Shown piece after piece: positions 5,720 to 9,947 of a stretch of 21,608 nt of DNA. Position numbers and translations under genes: made by a program. The notes beneath the pieces are model-generated. The model worked only from the letters and a program-made list of their open reading frames with translations, ran no database searches and was not told the DNA's origin. The DNA is from a virus. Location: IMG/VR virus record IMGVR_UViG_3300013136_000893, positions 1-21,608 of that record, one strand, 5' to 3'. Position 1 is the stretch's first letter. Each line of letters opens with the position of its first letter.

Positions 5720-8356
5720 ATGGGTTTTGTCCGCCGCTTTACTTCAATGCCGGCTTCCCAGGTGCTCGCGGAAATCGAAGGGCTCGTGATTGTTGATGCC
5801 ACTCCGCCTTCGGCTGTGGCGGGTGTGAGCACAGGCGTCGTGGCCGTCGTGGGCGAGTTCGCGGACATGGCCTACGGCGTGGCGGTGAGCAGTGCGGGTG
5901 TCGTGTCGTCCGACCCGCGCCCCGTGGAAATCTACTCGGGGCAGGATCTCGTGGAGAAGCTGGGCGGGTGGGATTCGACGCTGGGCGAGTGGGGCATCAC
6001 CTGTGGGAGCGGCTGGGCGGCGCTGCAGGGGCACGCCTTCTCACGGCTTGTGGCCGTTCCGGTGAACCTGTGTAGCTCGCGTGGCGTGCGGCTCTTCCGT
6101 GATCTGCCCACGAACACGTCGGCTGCGGATCCCTCGCCGGTCGTGCAGATGCAGGCTGCGACGGTCGAGGCTGGGCGCCAGTTCCGGACGGGGACGAGCC
6201 GGGCGGCGACGGGCACGCGCAAGAGCTTCCTCGCGACGGATGCTTACCATTCGGGCACGGACGGGGCGACGACGGCGGTGACGGACTCCGCGACGGGGGC
6301 TACGGTCACGTCGGGCGCGGGTCCGTTCGATTTCCGTGCTGCCGGGGCGAACCAGATTTCAATGCAATTCAACGCGGGCGGGGTGCAGAACTTCAACATC
6401 ACGGCGAACCACAGCATCCGGAAGAACACGGGTGGGATTGCCGCCTATCCGTGGACCGGAAGTTTCGACGTGGCGTTCGAGAGCGGGCCCGTACAGACCG
6501 TGACGGGCGCGGGTGTTGCGGATGTCGCGGCGCTGATCGCGCTCATCAACACCAGCATCTTCGGCGGACGCGGCGTGCTCAACGGTGCGGACTGCGACCT
6601 TACGTCGGATGTTGGTGGCACGAGTTCGCTTGTGACGATCTCGAACGTGGTCAACACGATCGGGAACTGTGGTTTCACGGCGGGCACGGGCACGCTTGCG
6701 CCAGGCAGCGACGTGGCGAACGATGCACAGGTGACGGCCGCCGAGCTGGCTCTGATCATCGACGGTCCTCTGACGAATGGCACTTGCACGGCGGTTGGCG
6801 CGACGCTCCGGTTCACGTCCAGCACGACGGGTGTGGCTGGGACAGCCACGGTGCTCGTGGCCTCCACGATGGACGTGCGGATGGGGGGCGAGTTCGCTAC
6901 CAACGTCGTGAAGAACGGTACGGATGCCGGACCGGGCACGCAGACGGCCAATACGCTGACAAGTGCCACAGGCGACTTCGTGAACGAGGGTGTCGCCAAG
7001 GGCGACATCGTGGTGCTGGGCGTCATCGGGGGCGCGGGGGCTCTCGGGACGAATGCCATGACCCTGCGGGTGCGCGCGGTGTCGAGTGCGACGCAGCTCT
7101 CGTTGGAGAAGATGGACGGGAGCGCGTTCTCGTTCGCGACCGACGCGGGGGCGCTTCCCTGGCGTATCCATGTTTCGGGTTGTGCGGACACGGGCGGGGC
7201 GAACGCCGTGGACGAAACAGGCGGCTATGTCGTGCCTGCACGGGCACTGGACGCGACCATCGCGGGGGACACGACCGTTTCCCCGATCAGCGTGCCGCCG
7301 GCCGCGACCGCGACGACGTGGGATCCCCTCTCCGGGCTCAAGCTGCGCACGATGACGGGGGCCACCGGGCTCGTCTATACGGCCGCCGTGCAGGCGCCCA
7401 ACGCCCCGCAGAGTGCATCGCTCGACGCGCTGTACGAGACGGCGATCCGCGGACTCATGTCGGACGAGCTTCCCAGCCGGGAAGTGAACGTCGTCTTCTC
7501 CGCGCGCTGCACCAACGACATCGCGAGCAAGCTCTACCAGCTCATGCTGGACACGGATGCCGTCGGGATGCCCAAAGTGGCGGTCGTTTCGCCTCCCGTG
7601 AACCAGGTCACGGTTTCGACTGTGCTGGGGGATGCGGCGCCGGGTGTCGGGGTCAATCGTCTGGACCGCGTGCTCTACTGCTGGCCGGCGGTGCAGACCA
7701 AGATCGGGGATCTCGTCGGGGAGCGGCTGCGCGGGGCGGACGGCTTCTACTACGACGAGGGCGTGGTGGACATGCCCGCAAGCGGCTGGATGGCCTCCAT
7801 CCTGTCGCTGCTGCAGCCAGAGCGCAACCCCGGGCAGACATCGGATCCCGTTCCGCGCTGCCTCTCGACGGTGTATGGGCTTGGACGGGGTACGCCCGCG
7901 CTCCAGATGTCGCACTACAAGCTGTTCCGCGCGAAGGGCGTCTGCGCCCTCCGGGATGATCCCGACCAGGGGTGGCAATTCCAGAGCGGTATCACGACGA
8001 ACATCGCAGAGAGTACGCGCAAGACCATCGCCCGGCGGCGCATGGCAGACTACATCCAGCAGTCTCTGGCCGCCGCGCTGGCTCCTCTCGTGAAGGAGCC
8101 CATGACCGAGGGCCTGAAGAAGGCGGCCCATGCGGTCTGCTACAACTGGTTGAAGGAGCTGAAGAGCGAAGAGCGCCCGGAGGCACAGCGCATTGACGAT
8201 TTCTCGGTGGACGCCGAGAGCGGCAACACCGACGCGCTGGAAGCACAGGGTATCTTCGTTCTGAACATCGCAGTGCGCACGCTGGCGAGTGCCGACGTGA
8301 TCGTCCTGAATACGCAGATCAGCGAGCAGACAGTGGTTGTTTCGGCGGCAGGATAG
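5720..8356 (+). CDS. Tail sheath protein, enlarged
   Basis: The contractile sheath surrounds the tail tube and shortens on infection. The C-terminal ~140 residues (about 740-878) have the sheath layout: a helix starting RRRMADYIQQSL near 775, conserved helical packing, then a beta-rich end with NIAVRTLASADVIVLN. About 565-740 is the alpha/beta core. The N-terminal ~130 residues form the other half of the core. At 878 residues it is far longer than P2 or Mu sheaths (about 400-500) and also longer than T4 gp18 (659). The excess is a Gly/Thr-rich beta insertion at about 140-560, probably an outward-facing set of domains. Within it are two related segments (about 261-310 and 338-388) resembling flagellar hook-IN motifs. 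The start ATG has CAGGAGG five bases upstream. Confidence 0.85.
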   Translation: MGFVRRFTSMPASQVLAEIEGLVIVDATPPSAVAGVSTGVVAVVGEFADMAYGVAVSSAGVVSSDPRPVEIYSGQDLVEKLGGWDSTLGEWGITCGSGWAALQGHAFSRLVAVPVNLCSSRGVRLFRDLPTNTSAADPSPVVQMQAATVEAGRQFRTGTSRAATGTRKSFLATDAYHSGTDGATTAVTDSATGATVTSGAGPFDFRAAGANQISMQFNAGGVQNFNITANHSIRKNTGGIAAYPWTGSFDVAFESGPVQTVTGAGVADVAALIALINTSIFGGRGVLNGADCDLTSDVGGTSSLVTISNVVNTIGNCGFTAGTGTLAPGSDVANDAQVTAAELALIIDGPLTNGTCTAVGATLRFTSSTTGVAGTATVLVASTMDVRMGGEFATNVVKNGTDAGPGTQTANTLTSATGDFVNEGVAKGDIVVLGVIGGAGALGTNAMTLRVRAVSSATQLSLEKMDGSAFSFATDAGALPWRIHVSGCADTGGANAVDETGGYVVPARALDATIAGDTTVSPISVPPAATATTWDPLSGLKLRTMTGATGLVYTAAVQAPNAPQSASLDALYETAIRGLMSDELPSREVNVVFSARCTNDIASKLYQLMLDTDAVGMPKVAVVSPPVNQVTVSTVLGDAAPGVGVNRLDRVLYCWPAVQTKIGDLVGERLRGADGFYYDEGVVDMPASGWMASILSLLQPERNPGQTSDPVPRCLSTVYGLGRGTPALQMSHYKLFRAKGVCALRDDPDQGWQFQSGITTNIAESTRKTIARRRMADYIQQSLAAALAPLVKEPMTEGLKKAAHAVCYNWLKELKSEERPEAQRIDDFSVDAESGNTDALEAQGIFVLNIAVRTLASADVIVLNTQISEQTVVVSAAG

Positions 8357-8364
8357 ACGTGAAA

Positions 8365-8386
8365 CCGGGCGGCGGGTAGAGCCCGG
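8365..8386 (+). other. Short hairpin between sheath and fibre genes
   Basis: CCGGGC (8365-8370) pairs with GCCCGG (8381-8386) across a 10-base loop, eight bases after the sheath stop. The GAGGAGAG ribosome binding site of the fibre gene starts 14 bases later. No T-run follows. Confidence 0.4.
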
Positions 8387-8414
8387 CCGCGAGCAAGCGA
8401 GAGGAGAGAAACCC

Positions 8415-9947
8415 ATGGCGCGCTCCCTGATCGTCAACCTGACCGGATTTCCGGTGTCCCTGCCCTTCCCGTACAAGGGCTACCTGCAGGGCGGAGAGGC
8501 CGCCACTGTCGAGGGGGCCAAGGCCACCGTCGAAGCGCGGCTGGGTGGATCCGATCTCATCCGCTACGTCCTGGAGGTGCGCGACACGCTGGATTCCGCG
8601 AGCGTGACGAGCCACGACGCAGCGCCGGGAGTCAACAGCAAGAAGATCACGAACATCGCGGACGCCACGGCAGACGCGGACGTTCCGAGCAAGCTCCAGA
8701 TGGACACGGCTATTGCGGTGGCCGTGGGTGCGCTGGACATGAAGGATGCTGCGAAGGTCGGCACGACCACCACGCTGACGCTGCACGACGGTGGCAGCGT
8801 GCCGACGTACACGACACAGACCATCACGGGCGGGGCGAACAATGCCTTCCCGACCGTGGACGGCGTGGCTCCCGTTCTCGGGATGCGGGTGCTCGTCAAG
8901 AACGAGGCCGCGACCGCACGCAACGGCTGGTACACGCTCACGACGCTGGGCACCGGGGCGACGCCCTGGGTGCTGACCCGCGCCGCCGATGCGAACACGG
9001 CCGGTGAAATGACGGTGGACGCCTACAGCTTCATCGCCCAGGGCACGCTTCAGGCCGGGCAGGCGTACCGCGTCTCGACGGCGCCGACGACGCTGGGCAC
9101 GGATCCCATCGTGTTTGCCAAGATCGACGATGGCACCAGCTCGGTCGTGTCGCTGACCACTCGGGTCTCCACGGAGGAAAGCACGCGGACCAGCGTGGAT
9201 ACGTCGCTGACCACCCGCGTCAGTGCCGCCGAAAGCGTCGAGACGAGCACGACCGGATCGCTCGAAACCCGTGTGAGTACAGAGGAAAGCACGCGTACCA
9301 GCGCTGACACGTCGCTGGAGACGCGGGTTTCCACGGAAGAGAGCACGCGGGCCAGCGCGGATACTTCACTGGAGACCCGCGTGAGTACGGCCGAGAGCGT
9401 GGAAACTTCCACGACGGGCTCGCTGGAAACCCGCGTTTCGACGGAGGAAAGCACGCGGGCCAGTGCCGACACGTCTCTGACCACCCGGATCTCCACGGAG
9501 GAAAGCACGCGGGCTAGCGCGGATGCTTCCATCGTGGGGGGTCCTCTGGTGCAGCTCCGCACGGCGACCATCGTCCACGGGGATCTGACGAATGCCGTGA
9601 ACGGTGTCGCCGAGGTCGAGAACATCGGAGCTGTGCTCCCGGCCAACGCCCACATCCTCGGGGTGTCCGCGAAGCTGGGCACGCAGTTCTCGGGCGGTGG
9701 AATCGTGTCGCTGGATGTCAAGGTAGGCACGGCCGGGGACGACATCGGCCTGGCCTCCGGCATCAGCGGGATGGACGCTGCCATCGACGGCGAGGTGGAC
9801 AATATCGTGCCGGGGACCGCTCCGCACAAGCACTTCGTCGCGGCCGGGGCACAGATCATTGCGACCTTCACGCCGGATGGGGCGCACAATCTCAATGACA
9901 TGACCACTGGGGAGATCACGGTCAACGTGCTCTTCACGGTGATCTAG
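8415..9947 (+). CDS. Trimeric fibre-like virion protein with Ser/Thr-rich repeats
   Basis: A 510-residue protein in three parts. Residues 1-60 are a small N-terminal domain. About 70-240 is a fibre-type module containing GMRVLVKNEAATARNGWYTL and, soon after, PWVLTRAADANTAGEMTVDA, a pattern common in phage tail-fibre and appendage proteins. Residues 246-371 are seven tandem 18-residue repeats starting SL-x-TRVS, with coiled-coil character. About 372-510 is a beta-sandwich-like head, probably the receptor or carbohydrate-binding tip. This layout suggests a trimeric rod. It lies between sheath and tube, where fibres are not usual, so it may decorate the tail or head. ATG 8415 has GAGGAGAG upstream; an in-frame ATG at 8337 would overlap the sheath gene. 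Confidence 0.7.
   Translation: MARSLIVNLTGFPVSLPFPYKGYLQGGEAATVEGAKATVEARLGGSDLIRYVLEVRDTLDSASVTSHDAAPGVNSKKITNIADATADADVPSKLQMDTAIAVAVGALDMKDAAKVGTTTTLTLHDGGSVPTYTTQTITGGANNAFPTVDGVAPVLGMRVLVKNEAATARNGWYTLTTLGTGATPWVLTRAADANTAGEMTVDAYSFIAQGTLQAGQAYRVSTAPTTLGTDPIVFAKIDDGTSSVVSLTTRVSTEESTRTSVDTSLTTRVSAAESVETSTTGSLETRVSTEESTRTSADTSLETRVSTEESTRASADTSLETRVSTAESVETSTTGSLETRVSTEESTRASADTSLTTRISTEESTRASADASIVGGPLVQLRTATIVHGDLTNAVNGVAEVENIGAVLPANAHILGVSAKLGTQFSGGGIVSLDVKVGTAGDDIGLASGISGMDAAIDGEVDNIVPGTAPHKHFVAAGAQIIATFTPDGAHNLNDMTTGEITVNVLFTVI
9150..9527 (+). repeat. Seven tandem 54 bp repeats in the fibre gene
   Basis: Seven exact-length 54 bp units (378 bp) encode 18-residue repeats. Two unit types occur in the order A B A A B A A: type A is S-L-x-T-R-V/I-S-T-E-E-S-T-R-x-S-x-D-x, type B is S-L-x-T-R-V-S-x-A-E-S-V-E-T-S-T-T-G. 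About half of the residues are Ser or Thr. The 18-residue period equals five helical turns, which suits a coiled-coil shaft. DNA-level similarity between units makes change in copy number by recombination plausible. Confidence 0.9.

Follow-up and report, generated by a model that had tools for sequence, protein, structure and literature searches.

A predicted module of two nested, flagellar IN-like units in the contractile tail sheath of a virus

Results

A contractile tail sheath of the short type

The window is the whole stretch of DNA analysed here, a single virus record of 21,608 bases. The open reading frame at 5720-8356 encodes a contractile tail sheath; its core fold, its phrog_23 match and its gene context all agree on this (Table 1). 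The sheath gene lies in a myovirus structural cluster, with a scaffold and a head protein upstream and a baseplate hub and wedge downstream, and a weak tape-measure match also falls in this cluster. The phrog_23 family matched residues 742-874 of the window's sheath (E 3.7e-8) and 38 of 44 aligned relatives (E <= 0.01). None of the Pfam sheath families matched the window's own sheath frame. Phage_sheath_1C was found in 11 of the 44 relatives at E <= 0.5, the window not being among the matches, and DUF3383 (PF11863) gave no match in a search that lacked a working control.

An AlphaFold2 model of the full-length protein, built from an alignment with 44 sheaths, had a pTM of 0.72 and a pLDDT of at least 70 at 620 of the 878 residues. 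Its best match among solved structures was the KP1 variant sheath (Z 32.8 over 337 residues). The pyocin R2 sheath, which has only 382-385 residues, aligned over 318 residues scattered across 37-862 (Z 31.4). Judged by title, the 50 solved entries listed are from contractile tails, R-type bacteriocins or related injection systems.

A profile of 'short' type sheaths matched the window twice, over residues 1-206 (279.8 bits) and again in a stretch ending at residue 874 (598.0 bits). By this measure the sheath core is of the short type, which occurs in many metagenomic phage records. The first part of the extra beta domain of these sheaths is also present in the full-length model, where strands are predicted with good pLDDT to about residue 200.

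The gene that follows the sheath (8337-9947, + strand) matches the head-decoration family phrog_2647 (E 5.6e-14) and contains a 162-base (54-base) tandem repeat at 9149-9529, which codes for ESTRTSADTSLETRVST-like units.

Table 1. Features of the tail sheath gene, with positions in the window.
Feature	Position	Strand	Evidence
Tail sheath gene, 878 aa	5720..8356	+	phrog_23; AlphaFold2 core; best solved match the KP1 variant sheath (Z 32.8)
Sheath core, N-terminal part, residues 1-126	5720..6097	+	Short-type sheath profile; solved sheaths align from residue 35-38
Extra beta domain of short-type sheaths, first part, residues 127-206	6098..6337	+	Short-type profile; boundaries approximate
IN-like module by homology, residues 194-399	6299..6916	+	Module profile built without the window
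Insert absent in close relatives, residues 207-423, 217 aa	6338..6988	+	Short-type profile; gap in L002 and L003; either end may be off by about 15 residues
Outer unit, first hairpin, residues 211-227	6350..6400	+	AlphaFold2
Inner ββαβββ unit, residues 248-311, IN at 276-277	6461..6652	+	AlphaFold2; FliD and Flagellin_IN profile alignments
Outer unit, helix and three strands, residues 340-380	6737..6859	+	AlphaFold2; the second of the two segments named in the text
Extra beta domain of short-type sheaths, second part, residues 424-545	6989..7354	+	Short-type profile and full-length model; boundaries approximate
Sheath core, C-terminal part, residues 566-874	7415..8341	+	Short-type profile; phrog_23

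The sheath carries one discrete insert

The first-pass annotation had described residues 140-560 as extra. This is roughly correct when the window is compared with one-domain sheaths; compared with its closest family, only about residues 207-423 are extra. These residues form the sole insert of 15 or more amino acids relative to the short-type profile. The insert falls at profile column 206 and the window is matched on both sides of it. Two relatives with 49% and 45% identity (L002 and L003) lack about 220 residues, with the gap at the insert.

The GC content shows a mild dip over the insert. In nucleotides, the two ends of the insert show no direct repeat, and its two sides share no matching sequence. 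At the protein level the flanks resemble each other (residues 161-210 against 386-435, approximately positions 6200-6349 and 6875-7024), with a score of 46 that was not compared with shuffles. Scanned on its own against Pfam and PHROG, the insert gave nothing useful and no sugar-binding family; a Teneurin TTR-like match (E 0.032) was below the family cut-off and was discarded. A tblastn search of 50,697 phage records with the sheath, the insert, the module of L050 and the sheath of L076 gave no match at that sensitivity. A scan of viral contigs with the insert alone yielded 12 stretches and no relatives, and a scan with the L050 module added no records to the relatives already known.

Other short-type sheaths carry different inserts in this region. 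The sheath of L052 has an unrelated insert of 80 residues at the same profile column as the window, and those of L008 and L028 have inserts of 57 and 67 residues twelve columns further on. An insert in L024 was placed at column 206, which may be an alignment slip, since the families it matches are those of L008 and L028 at column 218. The inserts of these last three sheaths match baseplate wedge and other virion families (phrog_2885, 1.2e-5 to 1.1e-9). With unrelated inserts in L052, L008 and L028 at this loop or one close to it, the loop region of the short-type sheath tolerates insertion.

The small insert of L008, L024 and L028, at about residues 220-286 of their sheaths, reads VSTAGFPASG...EYITYTG...GATRG and matches baseplate-wedge, fibre and virion families. 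By eye, something like it adjoins the IN-like module in L128 and L139.

The insert is predicted to contain two nested units

The region first singled out in this gene, positions 6500-6890, corresponds to residues 261-390 of the sheath. Two segments within it had been proposed to share a layout resembling the flagellar hook-IN motif, and both sequences do show that layout: residues 261-310 read VAALIALIN...NGADC(292)DLTSDVGGTSSLVTI and residues 338-388 read AAELALII...NGTC(356)TAVGATLRFTSSTTGVAGTATV, with Cys292 and Cys356 present. Compared directly, the two segments did not resemble each other above chance (score 34, a value reached or exceeded by 392 of 5000 shuffles), and wider halves of the repeat scored 39, which was reached by 316 of 2000 shuffles. 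The best internal 50-residue match of the sheath is the one between the insert flanks and not the one between these segments.

We then compared profiles of the two units built from 62 related modules with the window left out. These aligned at 96.0% over 86 columns with a score of 50.4 (96.1% and 50.5 with the window included). Column-shuffled controls for this alignment reached at most 16.2 (n=60), and slices of short-type sheaths compared with the inner-unit profile reached at most 13.5 (n=38). Thus, at the level of sequence, the repeat becomes clear only once the relatives are included.

AlphaFold2 applied to residues 185-412 together with the 62 relatives gave a model with a pLDDT of 80.5 and a pTM of 0.75, and a repeated domain is present in it. 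The model has two ββαβββ units. The outer one is split after its hairpin, and the inner one fills the break ahead of the outer helix. In sheath numbering, the outer unit is predicted to begin with a hairpin (strands 211-217 and 223-227). The inner unit follows, with strands 248-253 and 259-262, a helix at 269-280, and strands 285-288, 291-299 and 305-311. The outer unit then resumes with a helix at 340-348 and strands 354-359, 362-367 and 375-380. According to this model each of the two segments is the half of its unit that holds the helix and the strands after it. The model shows one unit set inside the other and not two repeats side by side. We consider it very probable that the insert is an IN-kind nested module of about 200 residues, seated in a loop of the extra beta domain that short-type sheaths have. 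In the full-length model residues 202-389 fall under a pLDDT of 50, and that model does not give the placement of the insert on the sheath.

The module recurs in a sister clade of sheaths

Scans for relatives gave 54 viral loci from 125 candidate stretches, 6 loci from species genomes (584 stretches), and 79 viral loci, with the best 80 of 124 relatives kept. We built a profile from the modules of other sheaths (39 in all, the window left out), and it matched the window with 41.3 bits over positions 6-211 of 217. Against this profile the best of 2000 shuffled inserts scored 3.8 bits, with a best single-domain score of 12.6. Profiles of the separate parts also matched the window, the inner unit with 11.4 bits and the helix-strand half of the outer unit with 13.2 bits for the best domain, each above 2000 of 2000 shuffles. 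Used alone in a six-frame search of all loci, the inner-unit profile did not reach the window at E 1e-3.

At E <= 1e-3 the module profile matched 69 of 122 distinct sheath sequences, not counting the window. Of the 105 complete sheaths, the module is present in 60 and absent from 45; 9 of the 17 open-ended fragments match and 8 do not. These proportions reflect the search seeds, which were short-type sheaths in one search and module-bearing sheaths in another. The inner unit is doubled in 8 of the 69 module-bearing sheaths (i-E < 1e-4). Two columns, an Asn (Asn277 in the window) and a Gly, are invariant among 63 modules. The family phrog_15814, which has no assigned function, matched 24 of these 63, the window not among them. 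In sum, these comparisons show the module to be regular in a sister clade of sheaths and the inner unit to be present twice in some of them. Two sheaths that had looked by eye as if they had one IN-like domain (L048 and L061) gave no match to the inner-unit profile and were set aside.

One alternative is that the module is a passenger of little consequence for fitness, in a loop that admits inserts. In its favour, three kinds of insert occur in the loop region of short-type sheaths and 45 complete relatives are missing the module. The regular presence of the module across the clade of 60 complete sheaths and its invariant Asn and Gly, which suggest selection in that clade, argue against such a tolerated passenger, and we regard it as unlikely.

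Among the relatives compared, the window has the single short-type core that bears the module, as might be found if a misassembled or chimeric contig had joined pieces of two sheath genes. Such an artefact is highly improbable, as the sheath is a single open frame of 878 residues with short-type sequence flanking the insert on both sides, its GC dip is only mild, and its module is 18-29% identical to that of any relative, so that none of those compared fits as a donor.

Several further observations were made on the related loci. Outside the sheath, a 246-residue gene at L145:1198-1938 (- strand), on the same record as L076, carries an inner unit (GGETMVFTIDE...VVNRINAA), and the inner unit therefore also occurs in another gene of the L076 phage. 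The PF07196 match of this gene is sub-threshold (E 4.6e-4). L109 and L142 are opposite ends of one 91-kb contig that share a sheath start, so this record may be circular with overlapping ends. In L059:2330-4039, from an Armatimonadetes MAG, the sheath frame ends early (570 residues, one of them unread) and departs from the family sequence near its end.

The module resembles flagellar IN domains

When the module model was compared with solved structures by VIA-align, the top matches were a phage XM1 chain (7kh1, Z 8.8) and FliD D2-D3 (5xlk, Z 8.8). The best solved match was chain A6 of 7kh1 (rmsd 3.1, 102 aligned residues, chain 95-215), which from its 497 residues would be the sheath. Further FliD entries followed (5xlj, Z 8.4; 5fhy and 5h5w, 8.2; 4nx9, 7.0), with at least 5 FliD entries at Z 8.0-8.8 and flagellins at up to Z 7.9. 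Going by their titles, 30 of the 50 matches listed are flagellar entries and 14 phage-virion entries that together fill ranks 1 to 44; an entry of another kind first appears at rank 45, with a Z of 2.9. Values of 8-9 are middling. Some FliD alignments cover residues 44-151 of the model, which is the inner unit, and others cover 8-217, a span that fits a split outer unit.

Foldseek alone found no match in the PDB at E <= 0.001, and from the third row down its PDB list consists mostly of antibody fragments. In BFVD it gave 5 matches at E <= 0.001, the best to an uncharacterised 731-residue protein of an uncultured phage (1.2e-12, TM 0.74) and the second to a named tail sheath. The module profile gave four matches to PDB sequences at E <= 1, the best at 0.36, and these were not credited.

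The Flagellin_IN family (PF07196) is defined by a central IN dipeptide. The inner unit of the window has IN at residues 276-277, and its outer unit has ID at the equivalent place. The inner-unit profile aligned with a Flagellin_IN profile made from 31 bacterial-genome hits at 93.9% (score 39.8; E 1.6e-7 as a single comparison), with IN placed on IN. The corresponding nulls reached at most 13.1 for 60 column shuffles and 11.4 for 38 sheath slices. The outer-unit profile aligned at 12.1% only. The proposal that each half is related to Flagellin_IN is thus borne out by profile for the inner unit and not for the outer.

Direct tests of family membership gave a different answer. The curated PF07196 model, with a cut-off of 22.7 bits, found nothing in the window, even with the threshold relaxed to E 10. 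In 50 module-bearing phage records it gave no match over the cut-off and 8 at E <= 0.1, of which four lie in the sheath inner unit, one in the sheath outside the module and three in other genes. The one outside the module, in L113, lies downstream of it and was not counted as support. In 43 records with module-less sheaths there was one match, elsewhere in the record. The 31-hit flagellar profile found 6 frames at E <= 0.01, all of them sheath frames (best L060, 3.1e-5); against the window, 1860 of 2000 shuffles did as well. The likeness to the hook-IN motif therefore holds by fold and by inner-unit profile and does not extend to family membership: the module is IN-like, yet outside Flagellin_IN by the curated test.

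Gain or retention of the module

The core of the window's sheath shares a mean of 45.5% identity (maximum 50.1%) with module-less sheaths and 33.6% (maximum 38.9%) with the module clade; the module-less sheaths and the module clade share a mean of 36.0%. In a tree of 55 rows the module clade stands apart at 100/100 and the window falls among the short-type rows. The short rows came together without the window in only 3% of 200 bootstrap trees, in a bootstrap that had not settled. Joining the window to the module clade was not rejected by AU tests (p 0.892 with 104 rows, p 0.607 with 55 rows), and trees constrained in this way were slightly to clearly likelier than the free trees. We disregarded the fine-scale branching of a quickly built tree of 104 rows, as its constrained counterpart was 39.3 log units better. 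Aligning the empty sites of the two sheath clades by hhalign was unreliable in this variable region. As the AU tests do not reject joining the window to the module clade, gain and retention of the module are both possible.

Discussion

A FliD-like domain in a phage sheath is already known from XM1, and decoration is known on a few phage tails. What is new here is the nested doubling of the unit, a large clade of module-bearing sheaths, a link to flagellar proteins at the level of profiles, and the module's presence in a short-type sheath. Searches of open-licence PMC papers brought up none that describes a sheath domain with one IN unit nested in another.

The flagellar counterparts, FliD D2-D3 and the outer domains of flagellin (PF07196), share the fold and the inner-unit profile but belong to flagellar proteins, whereas the module of the window is part of a tail sheath. 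FliD may offer a parallel to the nested units, as its D3 is set within D2.

Among phages, the closest case is Vibrio phage XM1. The report on its sheath, gp6, describes an insertion domain, InD (PDB 7kh1), as FliD D3-like by the authors' DALI search, and the authors suggest gene exchange with the host (PMC10457771). In both contractile sheaths, a domain with a FliD-like fold interrupts the N-terminal half. They differ in that InD is one domain of about 120 residues, whereas the window has two nested units within a further extra domain. Type 2 sheaths (Adele, phiTE, Sf14) are described as having a lateral domain, an extra β-sandwich with a helix, of a kind that recurs in sheaths, nozzles, auxiliary capsid proteins, FliD and flagellin (PMC12846349). 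The phiTE tail (9cba) matched the module model with a Z of 7.4. The lateral domain is single, nesting not being described in the relevant part of that report (PMC12846349), and the module of the window is nested. The auxiliary capsid protein gp36 of crAss001 has been described as bearing a FliD/FliC-like FD domain on the virion (PMC10172136); this is a capsid protein rather than a sheath, and we liken it to the module by description.

We propose that the module is a peripheral accessory lobe that is dispensable for contraction, a reading drawn by analogy that we favour with some reserve. By analogy with XM1, the module would sit at the outside of each sheath ring, remote from the tail tube. 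During contraction it would be carried along as a rigid lateral lobe, without driving the movement. In XM1 the sheath subunits are reported to move mainly as rigid bodies, the insertion domain afterwards pointing slightly downward (PMC10457771), and the lateral domain of the phiTE and Adele type is said to take no direct part in contraction (PMC12846349). We suggest that the module is accessory because 60 of 105 complete relatives bear it and 45 do not, and other short-type sheaths have unrelated inserts. Its likeliest use may be to make weak lateral contacts. These would be either with adjacent sheath subunits, stabilising the tail in its extended state, or with the envelope of the host. On present evidence we judge these two contacts to be equally likely.

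Each kind of contact has some precedent. A survey of 112 sheath models sorts sheaths by which extra domains they have, and puts forward adhesion or stability as what such domains are for (PMC9230969). The lobes along the tail might act as accessory adhesins that bind sugars or other polymers weakly, keeping the phage near its host before the receptor is engaged. Such a role has been suggested for extra sheath domains generally (PMC9230969), and it would suit modules that vary and are exchanged and whose related units occur in other virion genes (L145). The insert has no match to a sugar-binding family and its fold matches flagellar structural domains, so an adhesin is possible but on balance doubtful. 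Alternatively, the modules of neighbouring subunits might touch and cement the extended sheath, as has been proposed for domain II of phage 812 and others (PMC9230969). With close relatives that do without the module, we hold this to be somewhat unlikely.

Beyond the accessory lobe proposed here, a broader picture can be drawn. The loop region could be a general slot for exchangeable lobes, the commonest of which would be flagellin-type IN units that can be nested or multiplied. A flagellin-like coat on the tail would then provide an interchangeable surface for host contact or camouflage, and the window would be a snapshot of the module in transit from one lineage of sheaths to another. We consider this picture quite unlikely, and its odds were lowered slightly because the AU tests leave a gain of the module unproven.

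Extra domains are known on phage sheaths. As to what they are for, the sheaths compared here offer a natural experiment, in which cores about 45-50% identical occur with and without the module and others have one or two inner units. The effect of the module on tail stability and on adsorption is open to testing by its removal. Additionally, evidence from sequence profiles, beyond the fold, now ties a lobe of a phage sheath to the flagellar IN domain. This bears on whether phages took an IN-like lobe from their hosts, as the authors of the XM1 study suggested, or whether virion proteins share a common building block.
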